This document shows, in pieces, positions 10,546-18,119 of a DNA stretch of 34,666 nucleotides. A model generated the notes under the pieces. The model was not told the origin of the DNA and searched no databases. It saw only the letters and a program-made list of their open reading frames with translations. The translations under genes and the position numbers were made by a program. The first letter of the stretch is position 1; each line of letters begins with the position of its first letter. The stretch is from Nautiliaceae bacterium (GTDB taxonomy: Bacteria > Campylobacterota > Campylobacteria > Campylobacterales > Nautiliaceae). The stretch spans positions 1-34,666 of the forward strand of contig JAMOTL010000055.1 in the NCBI GenBank assembly GCA_027062285.1, given 5' to 3'.

Positions 10546-11003
10546 TTTTATATTACGGATTAATTTTTGTCGGAATTATTTTGACTTTAATGGCTGTTTA
10601 TAATTTATATTCTGCCACTAAAATAGAAAAAAATTTGGATAATTATTTATTTATTATTACTTCTCAAAAAGGTTATTTCATAGGAACCACCCTATTCGCT
10701 CTAGCAATTTTAGCAATCGTTTCTTATCAGGCCAGCGGATATATTTTCGATATAAAAGTATTTTCTATTGTTTTTTTCTTTTTGAGTCTTTTCTTTTTAG
10801 CTTTATCTCATTTGATATATTATTTAAGCGCAGAAAAAAAACTTTCTGATTATGAAAAATTTTTTAAAGATTTTGATATTGATTTAAATAATAAATGCCA
10901 AAAATTAATGCTAAAACATATCTATTTAAAAGAAAAAGATTTAAAAAAAGTTAAAAAAATATTTAAAATGAATAAAGAATTATGTAAGAAAAAAGAAAAT
11001 TAA
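10542..11003 (+). CDS. Unknown small membrane protein
   Basis: 153 residues with three hydrophobic segments, about 3-24, 47-66 and 73-95, followed by a Lys-rich cytoplasmic tail of about 55 residues. No known motif. The ATG overlaps the stop of the molybdopterin-domain gene (ATGA), so it is the last gene of the aspS-adk operon. Its 3' end overlaps the convergent coiled-coil gene by four bases. Function unknown. Confidence 0.7.
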   Translation: MILYYGLIFVGIILTLMAVYNLYSATKIEKNLDNYLFIITSQKGYFIGTTLFALAILAIVSYQASGYIFDIKVFSIVFFFLSLFFLALSHLIYYLSAEKKLSDYEKFFKDFDIDLNNKCQKLMLKHIYLKEKDLKKVKKIFKMNKELCKKKEN

Positions 11004-11012
11004 TCTTTTTTC
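10988..11012. terminator. Possible weak two-way terminator at the convergent gene ends
   Basis: GAAAAAAGA (10988-10996) and TCTTTTTTC (11004-11012) are perfect inverted repeats with a seven-base loop, centred where the membrane-protein gene and the opposing coiled-coil gene meet. The stem is AT-rich, but each strand ends in a U-rich arm, so weak termination both ways is possible. Confidence 0.3.
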
Positions 11013-11254
11013 TCTTGATTTTCTTTCAATTTACATCTTTGAACTTCAAGTTCTTTTATTTTTTCAACTCTTTTTATAAGCTGATCGAGTTCATTTAACT
11101 GCTCTTCACATTTCTTTTGGAGTTCTTCTTTTTTTTCTTGAAGTATTTTTAATTGTTTTTCAATTTCTTCCATCGGTATAGCACACTGTTTTGCCGCTTC
11201 TTCTTCTTTTTCTAAAGCCCACTCAGTAATTTTTTTAATTATTTCTTTTAGCAT
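11000..11254 (-). CDS. Small coiled-coil protein
   Basis: 84 residues, almost entirely Glu/Lys/Leu with clear heptads from about residue 27 to the end (MEEIEKQLKILQEKKEELQ and beyond), so a long coiled coil. Three Cys residues (about 23, 49 and 73) are scattered along it. No signal peptide or known domain. It has a good ribosome site (AAAAAAGGAGAG before the ATG) and a TATAAT at 11274-11279 (minus), so it looks like a real single-gene unit. Function unknown. Confidence 0.65.
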   Translation of the reverse strand: MLKEIIKKITEWALEKEEEAAKQCAIPMEEIEKQLKILQEKKEELQKKCEEQLNELDQLIKRVEKIKELEVQRCKLKENQEKKD

Positions 11255-11273
11255 TTTCTCTCCTTTTTTGAAA

Positions 11274-11305
11274 ATTATATCTTAATATTAAAAAAATAGT
11301 ATAAT
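11274..11305. promoter_or_regulatory. Divergent -10 boxes, coiled-coil gene (-) and NifX-like gene (+)
   Basis: A minus-strand TATAAT at 11274-11279 faces away from a plus-strand TATAAT at 11300-11305. Each is followed within 20-27 bases by a strong Shine-Dalgarno (AAGGAGAG and AAGGAGAA) and an ATG (11254 and 11332). Confidence 0.5.
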
Positions 11306-11331
11306 AATTTATTATTTTTAAGGAGAAAAAA

Positions 11332-11694
11332 ATGAAAATAGCCTTCCCTACTAACGATAAAAAAACACTTGCGCCTAAAATAGGTCTGGCAAAAGGTTTT
11401 TTGATTATTGACACGGAATCACAAGAAGAAATATATTTAGAAAATGAAAGACTAAACAAAATAATAAAAAATCACGGAAAATTAAAAGGTGACTGCGGAG
11501 AACACGGCCTGGGAATCGGTCAAGTTATTCCCAAAAAATTAAAAGAATTAGGAGTTGAAATTTTTATAGCAAAATTCTTCGGGGAAGGAATGCTCGGTAA
11601 TCTTGATTTTTATCAAATCAATACTTATGTATCAAAAAAACATTATATAAAAGATATTTTAAACGACTTAAAGGAGCACAATGGAAATCAATAA
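11332..11694 (+). CDS. NifX/NifB-C-terminal-like protein (Fe-Mo-co biosynthesis fold)
   Basis: 120 residues of the ribonuclease-H-like fold that in nitrogen fixers binds the iron-molybdenum cofactor (NifX, NafY, NifB C-terminus). It begins MKIAFPTNDKKTLAPKIGLA, and the late VEIFIAKFFGEGMLGNL matches the conserved G.G....L region. No nitrogenase genes are present, so it belongs to the broad stand-alone group of unknown role. It is clearly paralogous to the N-terminal domain of the gene at 18593 (same opening IAFPTN, GLAKGFLIIDT and FGEGM). A TATAAT and AAGGAGAAAAAA support the start. The 3' end overlaps the sirtuin gene by 14 bases. Confidence 0.82.
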   Translation: MKIAFPTNDKKTLAPKIGLAKGFLIIDTESQEEIYLENERLNKIIKNHGKLKGDCGEHGLGIGQVIPKKLKELGVEIFIAKFFGEGMLGNLDFYQINTYVSKKHYIKDILNDLKEHNGNQ

Positions 11695-12430
11695 TTACAA
11701 AAAAGCCGCTGATATTATAAAAAATTCTAAATTTCCCGTAGCATTTACGGGAGCTGGGATATCAGTTGAGAGCGGTATTCCACCATTTAGAGGGCCTACA
11801 GGGCTTTGGAGTAAATACGATCCGAAAATTTTAGATATCGATTTTTTTATACAAAATCCAGCTGAGAGTTGGAAATATATAAAAAAGATTTTTTATGATT
11901 ATATGGGGAACACGCAGCCAAATGACGCTCATAAATTTTTAGCCTGGCTTGAAAATATCGGTAAATTAAGAGGTATAATCACCCAAAACATCGACAATCT
12001 ACATCAAAAAGCGGGAAGTAAAAATGTAATTGAATTTCACGGCACGGCAAGTCAAATGGAATGTATCGACTGCAAAAGAAAATTTCCTTCGGATTCAATT
12101 TCTCTTGAAAATTTACCTCCTTTATGTCCTGAATGTCAGGGAATATTAAAACCGGACTTCGTATTTTTCGGCGAACCGATTCCTCCAAAAGCATTTGAAG
12201 AATCAATAAAACTCTGTGAAAATGCCGATTGCCTTATTGTAGTTGGTACAACAGGGGAAATTATGCCGGCAAGCCAACTACCGATACTCGCAAAACAAAA
12301 CGGAGCAAAAATCATCGAAATAAACATCGAACCGTCCAACTATACAAATACTATTACTGACATATTCCTAAACGACAAAGCAACAGTCGCCAGCAATAAA
12401 CTAAAAGAAAAGCTGGAAAAAATTATATAA
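11681..12430 (+). CDS. cobB: Sir2-family NAD-dependent protein deacylase
   Basis: Removes acyl groups from lysines using NAD+, yielding nicotinamide and O-acyl-ADP-ribose. 249 residues. GAGISVESGIPPFRGPTGLW at 24-43, TQNIDNLH near 101-108, the catalytic His in EFHGTA (about 119), and a structural zinc site with CIDC (127/130) and CPEC (149/152). The NAD loop reads VGTTGEIMPAS (Thr in place of the usual Ser), then INIE. The SGIPPFRGP...DIDFF region resembles Thermotoga/archaeal-type Sir2 more than E. coli CobB, whose desuccinylase Tyr/Arg pair is not evident, so deacetylation is the better guess. It overlaps the NifX-like gene. Its end overlaps the convergent HNH gene by eight bases. Confidence 0.93.
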   Translation: MEINNYKKAADIIKNSKFPVAFTGAGISVESGIPPFRGPTGLWSKYDPKILDIDFFIQNPAESWKYIKKIFYDYMGNTQPNDAHKFLAWLENIGKLRGIITQNIDNLHQKAGSKNVIEFHGTASQMECIDCKRKFPSDSISLENLPPLCPECQGILKPDFVFFGEPIPPKAFEESIKLCENADCLIVVGTTGEIMPASQLPILAKQNGAKIIEINIEPSNYTNTITDIFLNDKATVASNKLKEKLEKII

Positions 12431-13340
12431 GTCCCAGTTCTTCTGATATATCTTTTATCAGTTTTGAAAGTGGTCGTTTGTTTATTTCACTTTCATTTAT
12501 ATATCCATCACTGACTAATCTCATTAAATCTTCCAAATTTCTAAAAAAAGTACCTTCATATTTTTTAAAAAGTGATTCTAAATAATCCTCATTATACATA
12601 TATTTTTTTTGAATAAGTTCTAGGATTATGTCTTTTAAATAACTATATCTTTCCTCAAGTTTAAATATATTATTATGATTTACTGCTTTTTGTGATAAAT
12701 AATCTATCTCCAACTTAAACCCGTCAATTGAATGATAAAATTTTGCATTAATTATTTTTATTTTAAATTTTATATGTTTATCTATATTATCAATATATGG
12801 ATGTAAATAATTCCCTAAATCAAATTTTTCTTTCCCTTTTAGATTTGAATTACATTGATGACAAGATGGAATAAGATTGTATAACGATAGTGCCAATATA
12901 GGATAAGTTGCTTTATCAAAAAAATGGTCAAATTCTGGACGAATAATTTTTTCATTATTTTCATCAATAACAGTATAAATAGAATTAATATTACAATAGG
13001 GACATGTATTTACATTAAGACTCTTTGCCAAATCATATGCATTATACTCTTGTTTCTTTTTTGTGAAATTATTGTATAAATCATTAATGAAATTAAAATT
13101 TATATTAAAAAAGGTATATCTTTCAGAATGTTTGTACTCATTTTTTAAAGGAATAAAATATATTTTCTTCTTACTCCATTGAGCTATTTCGTATAATTTA
13201 TAAGGCTTTGCCAACAAAACATCATTTAATGAATAAGGAGCTTTTATTTTTTTTAACAATTTTTCTAACTTTTTTAACTTATCTTTCAATTCATTAAAAT
13301 GTCTATTTTTTGTATCTTCAGTTATTATTATTTTTTTCAT
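12423..13340 (-). CDS. ptuB: HNH endonuclease, Septu PtuB-like
   Basis: 305 residues. A zinc-supported HNH nuclease core lies at about 110-170: CPYC (C113, C116), then DH (D138, H139) in PEFDHFFDKATYP, N155 in SLYNLIPSCHQCN, and C160/C163. Flanking helical regions are specific to this family. It is the second gene of a two-gene operon: its ATG lies within the last 23 bases of the AAA ATPase gene, with only a weak ribosome site, so translation is probably coupled. An OLD-type/AAA ATPase plus HNH nuclease in this order is the Septu (PtuA-PtuB) arrangement. The gene is markedly more AT-rich than cobB, suggesting acquisition. Function is inferred from family and pairing. Confidence 0.8.
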   Translation of the reverse strand: MKKIIITEDTKNRHFNELKDKLKKLEKLLKKIKAPYSLNDVLLAKPYKLYEIAQWSKKKIYFIPLKNEYKHSERYTFFNINFNFINDLYNNFTKKKQEYNAYDLAKSLNVNTCPYCNINSIYTVIDENNEKIIRPEFDHFFDKATYPILALSLYNLIPSCHQCNSNLKGKEKFDLGNYLHPYIDNIDKHIKFKIKIINAKFYHSIDGFKLEIDYLSQKAVNHNNIFKLEERYSYLKDIILELIQKKYMYNEDYLESLFKKYEGTFFRNLEDLMRLVSDGYINESEINKRPLSKLIKDISEELGLI

Positions 13341-15381
13341 TTTCTAAATATTCCATCATTTTTTGTAAAAGCCTTATTTGTTCTTTAATATCATCTATTT
13401 GTTTACATTTATTCAATTTTTTACTATCAAGTCTTCTTTGAAGTTCTTTTTTAATTATAGGCTCTCCTATAATATTTATAATTTTTTGTGCTTCTTCATT
13501 AGATTTAATTTCAGAATCTTCATCATTTAAATATTTAATTACTTCATCAATTTTACTTTTAGCATATTCACCCATAAGCCCGTCTTCCATAAAAAATCCG
13601 TGAGTCAAAAGTGTATGAATATTCGCTCCAAAAGTTTTGATATCTACTTCATCACTAACGTTTTTGCCCTCTTTCATAAAAATAATATTTTCTTTTGGAA
13701 GGTCTGAGAGAATGAATGGAGAATGGGTAAGTAAAATAAAATCAAGTTTTATCTCAAAATTTCCATACTCTTTAAAAGATTTAAGAGAAAAAAGTAAATC
13801 ACTTATAAAATTTTTTTGCCATTCTGGATGCAAACCTAATTCAATTTCATCTAAAATTAAATACACTGATTTATATTTACTAACTTTATTTATGTTTGAA
13901 AGTTGATATAATAAACTAATTATAAATAAAAATTTATATTTCTCACCTGTGCTTAAAGAATTTAATGATTTTTCATTTTCATAAAAATGTACTTCAAGCC
14001 AACCAGGAAAATAATTAACAATATTATTTTCTGGTAAATTGTTTAAATCAATTTTATTTGTATTATTGGGTAATTTATTAAACAAAGAATTCTTATGAAA
14101 ATTTATTGCTATTTTTAATTTTAACAAATTATAATTTTTTTCATCAATAAAATCGAAATTATTTGAATCAATAAATCTTTCAAATTCTTTAATTAATTTT
14201 TCAAAGTTATCTTTATAATTTTTTTCTATTTTTATAAGCTTTTGCTCAAAATAATCAATTTTATCAGCGATTTTATTTAAATATTGTTTTTTTTCTATCA
14301 TTTTAAAATATATATATAATAAATTTAATTCTTTGTAATTTTTATTTTGATAAAAATTAATAATTTTGTCAACTATTAATAAGTTATCAATATCAAAAGT
14401 TTTGAATAATTTTATATATTTGTAAATAATTTTATATTTAATGCTTTTAAACTTATTAAATATTGGTTGATATTCGGCCCCGTATTGGGCTGTTTCATAA
14501 TCACTAAAAAAATCATTTATTTGATTTTCTAATTCTTTTAATAAAACCATATCTTTTTCACTATTTGCATATTCAAATCTTATTTGGTTGGGATTAAAAA
14601 AGTTAGTTATTTTATTTTTAATTAATTTTTCTTTAAAAAATGAATAAAATAATAATATACGTTGATTATTTATTGTAATTAATAAATCAATATCAATTTT
14701 TCTATTTTTTTTATAAGGTTCAATTAATAGTGGAAATTCATAATCATCTTTTCTATGATATAAGTATTCTTGCCATTGAAACAATTTTTCATTCCAAGTA
14801 TCAATAGTAAAATTATAATAAATAAAAAAACTATCAATAATACCATTAAAATTATCAATACATTTATTACTTTTTATATTAAATTCAAAATGTACGTTAT
14901 TTTTCAATCCTAAAACATTTAAATTATTTTGTTGTAAATAATTTTTTAACTCCTCAGAGTCAATTTTATAAAATTTATTTCCAAAATTTAATATTAAAAA
15001 AAAAGAGTTTTTTTCTTCAGTCATTGACATAAGTGACATTATTATTATTAAATCATTAACATTCTCATCCTCAATTTCCGATTCCAAATAAAAGTTTTTT
15101 TTGTCTTTATTTAAAAATAAAAAAGTTAATTCATAAATAGCTTTAATTAAATTACTTTTCCCCGCTCCGTTTTTCCCAACTATTGCTGTTATATTGATAT
15201 TATCCGGAAATATATTAACATAATCTTTTTTCTCTTCTATAATTAATTCGCTCTCATCTGGAATCAATTCATCATTTTCGTTATATTTTGGCTTAAATTC
15301 ACAATCAAATCTTGGAGAAAAAGTAAATCCTTGACGTTTTATATTTTTATATTTTTCTATCCATAAATAAACAAGCTCCAT
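13318..15381 (-). CDS. ptuA: AAA ATPase, Septu PtuA-like
   Basis: 687 residues. SMC/ABC-like ATPase with Walker A GKNGAGKS at 69-76, a long Lys/Asn-rich helical insert (about 150-450), the signature LSTGEKYKF near 475, Walker B VYLILDEIELGLHPEW near 507 and the H-loop LTHSPFILSDLP. Next comes TFGANIHTLLTHGFFM with GLMGEYAKSKIDEVI, a C-terminal part I associate with ATPases paired with HNH nucleases. In Septu the ATPase complexes with and licenses the HNH nuclease against phage. It is longer than the first-described PtuA proteins, so a subtype is possible. The start is ATG with AGAGGA; its promoter and leader hairpin are at 15412-15440. Base composition is strongly AT-rich. Confidence 0.82.
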   Translation of the reverse strand: MELVYLWIEKYKNIKRQGFTFSPRFDCEFKPKYNENDELIPDESELIIEEKKDYVNIFPDNINITAIVGKNGAGKSNLIKAIYELTFLFLNKDKKNFYLESEIEDENVNDLIIIMSLMSMTEEKNSFFLILNFGNKFYKIDSEELKNYLQQNNLNVLGLKNNVHFEFNIKSNKCIDNFNGIIDSFFIYYNFTIDTWNEKLFQWQEYLYHRKDDYEFPLLIEPYKKNRKIDIDLLITINNQRILLFYSFFKEKLIKNKITNFFNPNQIRFEYANSEKDMVLLKELENQINDFFSDYETAQYGAEYQPIFNKFKSIKYKIIYKYIKLFKTFDIDNLLIVDKIINFYQNKNYKELNLLYIYFKMIEKKQYLNKIADKIDYFEQKLIKIEKNYKDNFEKLIKEFERFIDSNNFDFIDEKNYNLLKLKIAINFHKNSLFNKLPNNTNKIDLNNLPENNIVNYFPGWLEVHFYENEKSLNSLSTGEKYKFLFIISLLYQLSNINKVSKYKSVYLILDEIELGLHPEWQKNFISDLLFSLKSFKEYGNFEIKLDFILLTHSPFILSDLPKENIIFMKEGKNVSDEVDIKTFGANIHTLLTHGFFMEDGLMGEYAKSKIDEVIKYLNDEDSEIKSNEEAQKIINIIGEPIIKKELQRRLDSKKLNKCKQIDDIKEQIRLLQKMMEYLENEKNNNN

Positions 15382-15411
15382 TTTATTTCCTCTGACACTT
15401 TTGATTTTTAT

Positions 15412-15440
15412 AAGGGCAAAAGCCCTTTTGAAAAATTATA
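15412..15440 (-). promoter_or_regulatory. Promoter and leader hairpin of the Septu-like operon
   Basis: On the minus strand a TATAAT (15435-15440, in TTTGATATAATTTTT) is followed at once by a perfect hairpin AAGGGC-loop TTTT-GCCCTT (15412-15427). It then runs about 30 bases to the Shine-Dalgarno AGAGGA and ATG of the ATPase gene. The hairpin would form the first bases of the mRNA. It also lies just after the SQR gene stop (15446), but lacks a T-tract in that direction, so it is a poor terminator for SQR. Confidence 0.5.
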
Positions 15441-15445
15441 TCAAA

Positions 15446-16642
15446 TTACATCCCGGGGATTCTTGGGATTTTATTGAGTTTTGAGTTTTTAAAATACCAG
15501 CCCCAACCTTTTTTCATCCAGTGTCCAATAACAGGCAGTGGAATTAAGATAGCTCTTTTATTGTCTCTATATACGAAAGCTGCGCCATCACCACTATCCA
15601 TCAGACATAAAATATTTATATGAGAGATGTATTCTTTTCTAGCTTCCTTGCCTTCTTCCATCATTTTAATATTGTATGCCGTAACTCTTGCCATTACTTC
15701 AGCTAAGTGTCCCTGTTTTGCTCTCCAGTCAGGTCCGTCGATTGCCGCACTGTCACCTATCGCAAAAATAGGAAACTTATCCGAACTTGTTTCATCAAAA
15801 TCATGCATAACTTCGCAGTATTCGTTAATTTTGATAAATCCTGCTTCATTTAACGGAAGCCCGGTATCTTTAAAAAGTTCAGGCCCGTTACCAGCCGGGA
15901 TAAACATAGTCAAATCACTCTCAAGCTTGCTTCCGTCTTCAAAAATCACGCCGTCTTTTACAAATTCGGTAATTTTTTTACCCTTAATTTGTTTAATATT
16001 TAATCTATCAAACCACGCATCCATTATTTTTAAGGCTTTTTGACCCATTCTGGCGCCCGGTTTTGGCATAGGAGCAAAGAAAGTTATCTCAAAATTATCC
16101 CTAAGTCCTAATTTTTTTAATTTATGATGAACGTTAAACATTACTTCAAAAGCAGGTCCCCCTCTTACGTTGCTCGGGTCTTTTGGATTTCCACCAAACC
16201 CGAATGCCAGTTTGCCATGCCCTCTTTTTATAAGCTCGTCAAGTTTTTCTTTTATTTTTAAGGACTCCTCAGGAGCGCCGCAGATCGAAAGAAAATGCTC
16301 GCTTCCTTTGTGTTTTACTTTATCCGCCCCGATTGCGATTATTAGATAATCAAAATCACATCTTGATTCATCATTTTCGCATTCTACTTTTTTATTTTTA
16401 ATATCAATTTTTTTAACTTTATTAAATTTTAGCTCAAATCCGTGAACACGGCTGAGTTCTTTCCAGTCAATTATACAATCTTCAAACTTGTATTCACCCG
16501 TAGGTATCCAAATAGAAATAGGATACACATACATATATTCTCTATTCGTTACAACCGTTACGTCAAAGCCGTATTTTTTTAGCCATATAGCACTCTCAAG
16601 AGCGGCAAATCCTCCACCTAAAATCAATACTTTTTTAGCCAT
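15446..16642 (-). CDS. sqr: Sulfide:quinone oxidoreductase-type FAD protein
   Basis: 398 residues, two-dinucleotide-binding-domain flavoprotein of the SQR/FCSD/NDH-2 group. Features are the FAD-binding N-terminus MAKKVLILGGGFAALESAIW, YLIIAIGAD, and the FAD pyrophosphate motif FAIGDSAAIDGPDWRAKQGH. The C-terminus ends WYFKNSKLNKIPRIPGM, a membrane-attachment-type region. Of the three Cys of classical SQR (Aquifex 124, 156, 347), C121 and C346 are in place, but the middle one is missing: GFGGNPKDP...GGPAFE has none. It therefore may oxidise sulfide by a variant route or use another reductant. Last gene of the TDT channel-DUF302 operon; start supported by AAAGGA. Confidence 0.82.
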   Translation of the reverse strand: MAKKVLILGGGFAALESAIWLKKYGFDVTVVTNREYMYVYPISIWIPTGEYKFEDCIIDWKELSRVHGFELKFNKVKKIDIKNKKVECENDESRCDFDYLIIAIGADKVKHKGSEHFLSICGAPEESLKIKEKLDELIKRGHGKLAFGFGGNPKDPSNVRGGPAFEVMFNVHHKLKKLGLRDNFEITFFAPMPKPGARMGQKALKIMDAWFDRLNIKQIKGKKITEFVKDGVIFEDGSKLESDLTMFIPAGNGPELFKDTGLPLNEAGFIKINEYCEVMHDFDETSSDKFPIFAIGDSAAIDGPDWRAKQGHLAEVMARVTAYNIKMMEEGKEARKEYISHINILCLMDSGDGAAFVYRDNKRAILIPLPVIGHWMKKGWGWYFKNSKLNKIPRIPGM

Positions 16643-16651
16643 TCAAATCCT

Positions 16652-17158
16652 TTAAAATATAGAATATCTAAAATGAACAAAACTTAAAATATTTTGAATA
16701 TCTCTAACAACCTTTTCCATAATTTTTGATTCTGGCGTTAAGCTTAACATTCTCGTCAAAAGATATCCGTTCATAAGAGAAATATAAACTCTTCCCATAC
16801 TGTCTTCGTATATGGCAATGCTAAGAGGCATTTTAACAGCCATAAATTTTGTTCTGTCATCTTTTAACATCTCTCCCGCATATTTTGCGTTACAGAATTT
16901 TATAATTTTAACAGGACCAACATCCGGTCCTCCGTATTTTTTTATTTCTTCTTCCTGATTAATTACTGTAACAACATGCCATCCTGGCTGTTTATTGATT
17001 CTGTTTACTAAAACCTGAACGGTTTTCTCAAAATCATACGGACTTTTTACCTGTTTAAACAGCATATCTTCAGCTGCAATTTTAAACATTAAAGGAATTA
17101 TAAAAACTGCCACAACAAATCCCAAAATAATTCCACCGATTAAACTTCTTTTATTCAT
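16652..17158 (-). CDS. DUF302 protein with N-terminal membrane anchor
   Basis: 168 residues. An N-terminal hydrophobic segment (about 6-28, IGGIILGFVVAVFIIPLMF) is an uncleaved anchor or signal. It is followed by a DUF302 domain: FEKTVQVLVNRINKQPGWHV, then VKIIKFCNAKYAGEMLKDD, and PLSIAIYEDSMGRVYISLMN. DUF302 proteins are of unknown biochemical role and are often found with sulfur or copper/redox genes. ATG 17158 was chosen for its very strong ribosome site GAGGAGGAATAAA; upstream codons lie in the preceding gene. It lies between the TDT channel (one-base gap) and SQR genes. Confidence 0.83.
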   Translation of the reverse strand: MNKRSLIGGIILGFVVAVFIIPLMFKIAAEDMLFKQVKSPYDFEKTVQVLVNRINKQPGWHVVTVINQEEEIKKYGGPDVGPVKIIKFCNAKYAGEMLKDDRTKFMAVKMPLSIAIYEDSMGRVYISLMNGYLLTRMLSLTPESKIMEKVVRDIQNILSFVHFRYSIF

Positions 17159-17159
17159 T

Positions 17160-18119
17160 TTATTCCTCCTCAGGTACACAGATTTTTTGATTTTTGATAG
17201 CAAGATATGTTTTATAACTCACATATCCAACCACTACGGTTGTTAAAGCTAATAAAAACAGAGCAAATGCTTTTATAAACCACTTATGATATACACTATC
17301 CATTAGGATAGTTGCTATTGTTATTGCAGCCAATGGGAACGTATATGCCCACCATGATATAAAAAACTGCAGTTTAAGAAAATTTTTAAGCATAATAAGC
17401 AGTAAAAACAGAATAAAAAATGCTATTAAATATAAAAAGAGACTAAAAAAATCCACTATTCCAAAAGTTATTCTAAAATAACTGATAAATCCTACAGCCG
17501 GGGGTGCTATAAGAATAAAAAAAGTAGGAATCAGTCTTTTACCAAGAGGTAAATGGAATATCATCCTGTACATTACGATAGTAATTAATATTATCCAAAA
17601 GAAAATACCTATACTAAAATAAAAATGATTTACCACTTCATCACAAACATCAACACCTACTATAGGTACCAATACGTTACCAACAATAGGGATAAACCAG
17701 GCAGGATTTATATGTTTAACTTCAAGTTTGTCATGCTCTATCCAAAATTTAATGACTTTGTATGTAAAAAAGAGATGAAGCACAGCTCCTATAAACCAAA
17801 AAGTAACGGATACAGGCGGTGCAAAATCGCTTATTGCAATGGAAACAAGCAAGAAACTAATTGAAATAGCCGCACCAAAAGAACTTTTGATTGGATGAGC
17901 AAACTCTTTTTTTACGGCATCAGGATATTTTATCCATTTTATCATATAAGCACCGAATATTACGAAAAAAAGCATAACATCAATAAAAAGTAAAATTAAA
18001 TAAGGCCAATACGGAAAATTTAAAAAATGATATGCTTTCGCAAAAGCGATAGTAAGACCAGAAAATCCCATAATAACTGCAAACAGTTGGACAGGAAAAT
18101 ATTTTAGGCTTCTCTCCAT
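17160..18119 (-). CDS. TDT/SLAC1-family anion channel or exporter
   Basis: 319 residues with about ten hydrophobic segments across the whole length, in the pattern of TehA/SLAC1/Mae1 proteins: the opening YFPVQLFAVIMGFSGLTIAF, then NPAWFIPIVGNVLVPIVG and WWAYTFPLAAITIAT. The family carries anions such as dicarboxylate, sulfite (fungal Ssu1), tellurite-linked TehA, chloride or nitrate. Being the first gene of an operon with DUF302 and SQR makes a sulfur anion (hydrosulfide, sulfite, thiosulfate) an attractive but unproven substrate. The start has GGAGGGGCT before ATG. A large palindrome overlaps its promoter. Confidence 0.87.
   Translation of the reverse strand: MERSLKYFPVQLFAVIMGFSGLTIAFAKAYHFLNFPYWPYLILLFIDVMLFFVIFGAYMIKWIKYPDAVKKEFAHPIKSSFGAAISISFLLVSIAISDFAPPVSVTFWFIGAVLHLFFTYKVIKFWIEHDKLEVKHINPAWFIPIVGNVLVPIVGVDVCDEVVNHFYFSIGIFFWIILITIVMYRMIFHLPLGKRLIPTFFILIAPPAVGFISYFRITFGIVDFFSLFLYLIAFFILFLLLIMLKNFLKLQFFISWWAYTFPLAAITIATILMDSVYHKWFIKAFALFLLALTTVVVGYVSYKTYLAIKNQKICVPEEE

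Follow-up and report, generated by a model that had tools for sequence, protein, structure and literature searches.

Cassette exchange between conserved ends in a Septu-like ATPase–HNH gene pair of a Nautiliaceae bacterium

The stretch of DNA analysed here (the window) is a 34,666-nucleotide contig of a Nautiliaceae bacterium (JAMOTL010000055.1, assembly GCA_027062285.1), in which two overlapping minus-strand genes, encoding a PtuA-like ATPase and a PtuB-like HNH protein, lie between cobB and an sqr-like gene (Table 1). From the sequence alone this pair had been proposed to be a Septu-like anti-phage operon; we report here that the cores of both genes are mosaics, exchanged between conserved ends, an observation that lay outside the reach of the original prediction and is the novel part of this work. 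Both open reading frames were recovered with the predicted coordinates, lengths (687 and 305 amino acids, aa) and 23-bp overlap. They are coding, because homologues recur and the HNH gene directly follows the ATPase gene in nearly all ATPase loci: the HNH protein has a patchy distribution (50 of 298 genomes, 24 of the 58 genera of the class), and the adjacency holds in nearly all of 80 loci, mostly from Campylobacterota. The genes form an AT-rich block, as had been noticed, with a GC content of 20.1% (ATPase) and 22.0% (HNH) compared with 35.7% in cobB, 37.0% in the sqr-like gene and 30.2% in the window. Below, genomes are labelled G and loci L; the focal genome is G000, and loci L102 and L082 lie in G008 and G001, respectively.

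Searching both proteins against defence-system hidden Markov models, as had been proposed, placed the PADLOC models of PDC-M62 at the top, with PDC-M62A for the ATPase (PDLC04737; E = 2.3e-129, residues 1–678 aligned to positions 1–596 of 601) and PDC-M62B for the HNH protein (PDLC04743; E = 9.2e-74, residues 15–303). PADLOC PtuA1 (2.1e-21) and PtuB1 (1.7e-7) followed far behind and were not the best match for either protein, the NCBIfam PtuA and PtuB equivalogs, which model retron Ec78 effectors, reached 58/500 and 15/150 bits, far short of their cutoffs, and TIGR04435 (8.5e-21) and TIGR02646 (9e-5), which describe restriction- or retron-associated AAA ATPases and HNH proteins, matched partially and far under their curated cutoffs. 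By structure, PtuA and PtuB come first. A profile of 58 ATPases searched against the PDB found PtuA as best match (2.5e-21), and the 19 top-ranked Foldseek matches of the ATPase model were all PtuA structures from retron or Septu complexes. For the HNH model (predicted local distance difference test score, pLDDT, 90.9), the three best PDB matches were retron PtuB HNH proteins with probabilities of 0.97–0.99, at E-values of only 0.008–0.02 and template modelling (TM) scores of 0.31–0.37 of the query; a single-sequence phmmer search of the HNH protein against the PDB gave no match. The label ‘Septu-like’ is right because of these structural results, and no better structural match fell outside the PtuA and PtuB families, while membership of characterised Septu goes beyond the profile evidence: the suggestion of a possibly distinct subtype holds, and the best family is PDC-M62, not PtuA1/PtuB1. 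The pair is a PDC-M62 unit, a catalogued candidate kind related to Septu, with a probable anti-phage role; the A and B models are matched over nearly their full length and in the same gene order. PDC-M62 (phage defence candidate M62; unpublished, Payne et al.) is catalogued as a candidate only. The pair itself is therefore already known, and DefenseFinder labels many PDC-M62 loci as Septu; for the B. cereus group, 203 calls duplicated between M62 and Septu are reported (PMC11811056).

The features shared with Septu are an ABC-type ATPase and an HNH nuclease in one operon, with the best fold matches. The predicted motifs of both proteins were present and nearly all invariant or near-invariant across 58 ATPase and 75 HNH homologues, including Walker A, the signature and Walker B in the ATPase, and the partner is an HNH protein with a predicted PtuB fold. 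In the HNH core, C113, C116, H139, N155, C160, C163 and N164 are invariant and D138 near-invariant, and in the HNH tail K288, R289, S292, K293, L294, D297 and I298 are invariant or near-invariant family-wide. Unlike the 465-aa E. coli PtuA of solved structure (8ee4), the focal ATPase is 687 aa long with a large exchangeable insert, and the focal HNH protein differs by extra N-terminal helices and its conserved C-terminal tail. The nearest solved folds for both proteins are those of retron I-A (Ec78/Eco7, Ec83), from which the focal locus differs in having neither a reverse transcriptase nor an msDNA (multicopy single-stranded DNA) RNA, as judged by Pfam and Rfam. PARIS AriA and the Lamassu SMC-like ATPases belong to the same ATPase superfamily but have a different partner and gave weaker matches.

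Comparison with genomes that carry the pair at the same site, the congener G001 and G013 from another genus, revealed a discontinuous pattern of similarity. ATPase residues 1–80 and 561–640 are 78–93% identical in amino acids and 82–89% in nucleotides (nt), and the HNH tail is similarly close in G001 (residues 241–305: 84–90% aa, 84–87% nt), with only residues 281–305 aligning well in G013 (72% aa). Between these conserved parts identity is mostly 13–50% aa and about 40–60% nt. The left edge of the exchanged region coincides with the end of the ATPase N-end; the middle contains the helical insert, the signature and Walker B, its right-hand breakpoints lie between signature and H-loop, and the C-end includes the H-loop HSPFILSD, TFGANIHTLL and FFMEDGLMGEYA. 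The nearest relative changes by segment: both ATPase ends are closest to G001 and G013 and the HNH tail to G001, the ATPase middle to L102, which lies at another site, and the HNH body to L102 and G016, the latter offering no middle to compare, so that its nearness concerns the HNH body only. G001 itself ranks 19th of 59 for the ATPase middle and 19th of 62 for the HNH body. In 40-column windows, control genes near the site never fell below 0.47, whereas the ATPase dropped to 0.03–0.07. Furthermore, codons for the same amino acid differ between G000 and G013 at 36 of 135 positions in the ATPase ends, compared with 84 of 172 in the adjacent cobB (p = 9e-5), indicating a more recent sharing of the ends than of the flanking gene.

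Table 1. Features of the ATPase–HNH locus and its flanks (window coordinates)
Feature	Coordinates	Strand	Evidence or similarity
ATPase gene (PDC-M62A, PtuA-like)	13318..15381	-	687 aa open reading frame, profile and fold matches
ATPase conserved N-end, aa 1–76 (MELVYLW... up to Walker A)	15154..15381	-	93% aa / 87% nt to same-site G001
Walker A GKNGAGKS, aa 69–76 (G69–S76)	15154..15177	-	near-invariant, 58 homologues
Exchangeable middle cassette, aa 77–552	13726..15153	-	unalignable with same-site G001/G013; nearest L102 (other site)
Helical insert inside cassette, aa ~231–436	14074..14691	-	predicted helices H231–255 to H433–436
LSTGE signature, aa 476–480	13942..13956	-	L476, S477, G479 invariant (58 homologues)
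Walker B LILDE, aa 508–512	13846..13860	-	D511, E512 invariant (58 homologues)
ATPase conserved C-end, aa 553–655	13417..13725	-	aa 561–640: 82–90% aa to same-site G001/G013
HNH gene (PDC-M62B, PtuB-like)	12423..13340	-	305 aa open reading frame, profile and fold matches
ATPase end / HNH start overlap, 23 bp	13318..13340	-	open reading frame coordinates
Exchangeable HNH body, aa 1–240, including HNH core	12621..13340	-	60% aa to L102/G016
HNH core CPYC...DH...N...CHQCN, aa 113–164	12849..13004	-	alignment of 75 homologues
HNH conserved tail, aa 241–305, ...INKRPLSKLIKDISEELGLI	12426..12620	-	88% aa / 87% nt to G001
Palindrome TTATATAA	12423..12430	both strands	cobB (+) and HNH (-) stop codons, one per strand; one insertion junction
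cobB (SIR2 family) flank	11681..12430	+	Pfam SIR2 7.9e-49
Leader, 64 bp, sqr stop to ATPase start	15382..15445	-	60/64 identical in congener G001, same site
sqr-like flavin adenine dinucleotide (FAD) oxidoreductase flank	15446..16642	-	Pfam Pyr_redox_2 6.8e-21

The same pattern recurred across the family. Of 29 locus pairs whose ATPase ends are conserved (N-end at least 0.83 and C-end at least 0.78 nt identity; locus pairs are not independent events), the middle was unalignable in 28. In L133 and L144, for example, the N-end (95%), C-end (92%), HNH body (93%) and tail (96% nt) are nearly identical around unrelated middles, and DNA identity changes from 91–98% to unalignable at sharp boundaries. 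Conversely, L112, L149 and L168 share middles of 90–93% nt identity beside unrelated HNH bodies. Single-contig genomes compared at orthologous sites gave the same picture (G325/G140, G264/G277 and G039/G277), with left breaks no more than about 30 nt from where Walker A ends and most right breaks 120–220 nt before the H-loop, in the signature/Walker B stretch; the HNH bodies of G264, G277 and G039 are 89–90% identical in nt beside three different middle clusters. ATPase middle and HNH body thus exchange independently of each other, and therefore neither need match the other. Altogether, 82 middles (a few from the same genome counted twice) fell into 41 sequence clusters at E < 1e-6, and middles were AT-richer than ends (GC 0.229 and 0.31) in 97% of 77 loci. 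These alignments indicate that bacteria repeatedly replace the inter-motif region of the ATPase and the nuclease body and keep the ends. A search of G000 for silent cassettes found none, with one match per gene only. We found no published report of recombination or module exchange in Septu, in a search that covered only a minority of subscription journals and no bioRxiv preprints, and the papers searched describe neither a function nor modular exchange for PDC-M62.

The pair had been proposed to be an insertion, and comparison of the cobB–sqr interval across relatives bears this out: the site is empty in four of them, so that the pair is not fixed at this locus. The convergent cobB and sqr genes abut in G005 (cobB end 2247, sqr end 2248), G004 and G012; in G008, a same-family relative, 17 bp separate them, and none of these four sites holds the pair. 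The pair occupies the gap exactly in G000 and G001 and lies against cobB in G013; the 8-bp overlap of cobB and HNH is common to these three genomes and is not found at the empty sites. In the congener G003, the sqr gene at this site (C38:1008–1550) resembles a pseudogene with several stops. Exceptions to the ATPase–HNH adjacency are due to contig ends or to an inserted gene or transposon: a transposase-like gene interrupts the operon in a Sulfurovum metagenome-assembled genome (MAG; L129:7655–9160), and in two different genera an MNT-HEPN toxin–antitoxin pair, identified by Pfam NTP_transf_2 and HepT-like matches, is nested between the two genes (L140:7683–8349 and L146:7704–8373), L139 having MNT only. 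Searching for carriage on mobile genomes gave no match in IMG/VR with the HNH profile, one weak match among phages and 35 among plasmids, of which the best-covering ones stood at 28–46%, and thus nothing to suggest that phages carry close relatives. On a conjugative plasmid of Enterobacter roggenkampii (L247:2440–4603, NZ_AP023449.1), a PDC-M62-like ATPase and HNH gene adjoin a tyrosine integrase and mcr-10.1, and an HNH match of this type recurs on several Enterobacter and Klebsiella plasmids. In E. coli, examined for swapping at population level, most of the query, itself a distant PDC-M62 relative, was present in only 10 of 5,426 genomes.

The leader upstream of the ATPase gene contains a hairpin (AAGGGC-AAAA-GCCCTT) that is perhaps the sqr terminator, and a Shine-Dalgarno-like AGAGGAAATAAA that precedes the ATPase ATG. 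A single promoter had been proposed for both genes, and this part was not supported: no convincing promoter was found in the region, and promoter-like matches were no more frequent than expected by chance (28 against 28.9). No Rfam family matched across positions 11000–17500. Upstream of cobB, L082 (2344–7286) carries a three-gene insertion missing from the window, which encodes a histidine kinase with a sensor domain, a response regulator-GGDEF protein and an unmatched 598-aa protein.

We favour, at a probability of roughly 0.72, that the pair is a Septu-type (PDC-M62) anti-phage unit that spreads horizontally, evolves through the exchange of cassettes and has an HNH protein acting as an abortive nuclease. 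The ATPase and the HNH nuclease would form one complex, inactive before infection; upon infection, ATPase-controlled activation would let the HNH protein cleave either DNA or tRNA and so abort the infection. As analogies, the solved Septu complex has six PtuA and two PtuB subunits (6:2; PMC12948488), and Septu Ec-B88 depends on the residues of its Walker and HNH motifs and cleaves tRNA-Tyr (PMC13096335). The Septu of E. coli ATCC 25922 and retron Eco7 differ in target, the former reportedly cutting DNA and the latter depleting tRNA-Tyr (PMC11555353). Both ATPase ends and the near-invariant tail of the HNH protein stay constant and would therefore be a common chassis, most likely serving as the ATP switch and as the surface on which the HNH protein docks. 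Between Walker A and Walker B/H-loop, the ATPase segment with its helical insert would be an exchangeable module that senses the trigger, and the HNH body an exchangeable effector that may determine the target, both swapped by recombination within conserved blocks. Whether such pairs work as modular immune receptors, with the middle as a recognition cassette that decides which phages are recognised and the HNH body as an independent effector cassette, exchanged at fixed sites by recombination in conserved ATPase and tail blocks, we consider an even question. Type I restriction HsdS subunits likewise have conserved blocks that flank exchangeable target-recognition domains; the evolution is alike by analogy only, as the parts swapped here are an ATPase interior and a nuclease body in different proteins.

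Several points weigh against this interpretation. We know of no experiment showing phage defence by any PDC-M62 pair. The ATPase model is of moderate quality (pLDDT 74, predicted TM-score 0.66) and scores low against PtuA, with TM-scores of 0.12–0.29 of the query, so the fold supports PtuA at the superfamily level only. Phage sensing by the middle is deduced from its turnover only, and the middle could just as well control oligomer form or serve to escape phage inhibitors. The focal locus has no typical mobile-element or defence-island context. The focal genome, whose assembly has 111 contigs, is a draft assembly or MAG, as are many homologues. Some striking cases, such as L133 and L144, are indeed on short MAG contigs, and the mosaics might be assembly chimeras in which metagenome bins became joined through conserved blocks; we rejected this explanation, which we regard as barely credible, because closed genomes at orthologous sites show the same mosaic and G013 is also a single contig. 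That an ordinary Septu or PDC-M62 pair simply diverges fast in its middle, through point mutations and indels in an arms race, is improbable. Weak homology does persist among middles within clusters (38% aa between G000 and L102) and the ends are strongly constrained, but the sharp DNA breakpoints, the near-identical middles recurring in different contexts and the switching of nearest neighbours inside the focal gene led us to reject it.

Two further readings concern function. The pair could be a selfish or toxin–antitoxin-like unit, in which the ATPase restrains the HNH protein and addiction maintains the pair at its site. The retron Eco7 PtuAB proteins are toxic without restraint by reverse transcriptase and msDNA (PMC11555353), the pair is present site-specifically without other cargo, and the operons of L140 and L146 contain MNT-HEPN modules. 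Defence is nevertheless favoured by the exchange of modules between conserved ends and by the homology to Septu, retron and PARIS-type ATPases, and the unit is also found at other sites, leaving addiction a minor contender. A degenerate retron I-A effector that has lost its reverse transcriptase is very doubtful: retron I-A/Ec78/Ec83 effectors are the nearest solved structures, but the locus, flanked by cobB and sqr, holds neither a reverse transcriptase gene nor an Rfam RNA, its relatives are two-gene units, and the PDC-M62 models outscore the retron ones.

These loci offer natural domain swaps for Septu-type systems, whose triggers are poorly understood: some share a near-identical chassis and nuclease at one site around unrelated middles, others a near-identical middle beside unrelated nucleases. 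The ATPase middle is the candidate sensing part, and the HNH tail with the ATPase C-end the candidate docking part. Exact boundaries for chimeras lie at Walker A and in the Walker B/H-loop region, and matched natural pairs make the question of the trigger testable. The results also suggest that the diversity of defence systems is undercounted when counts rest on conserved motifs only.

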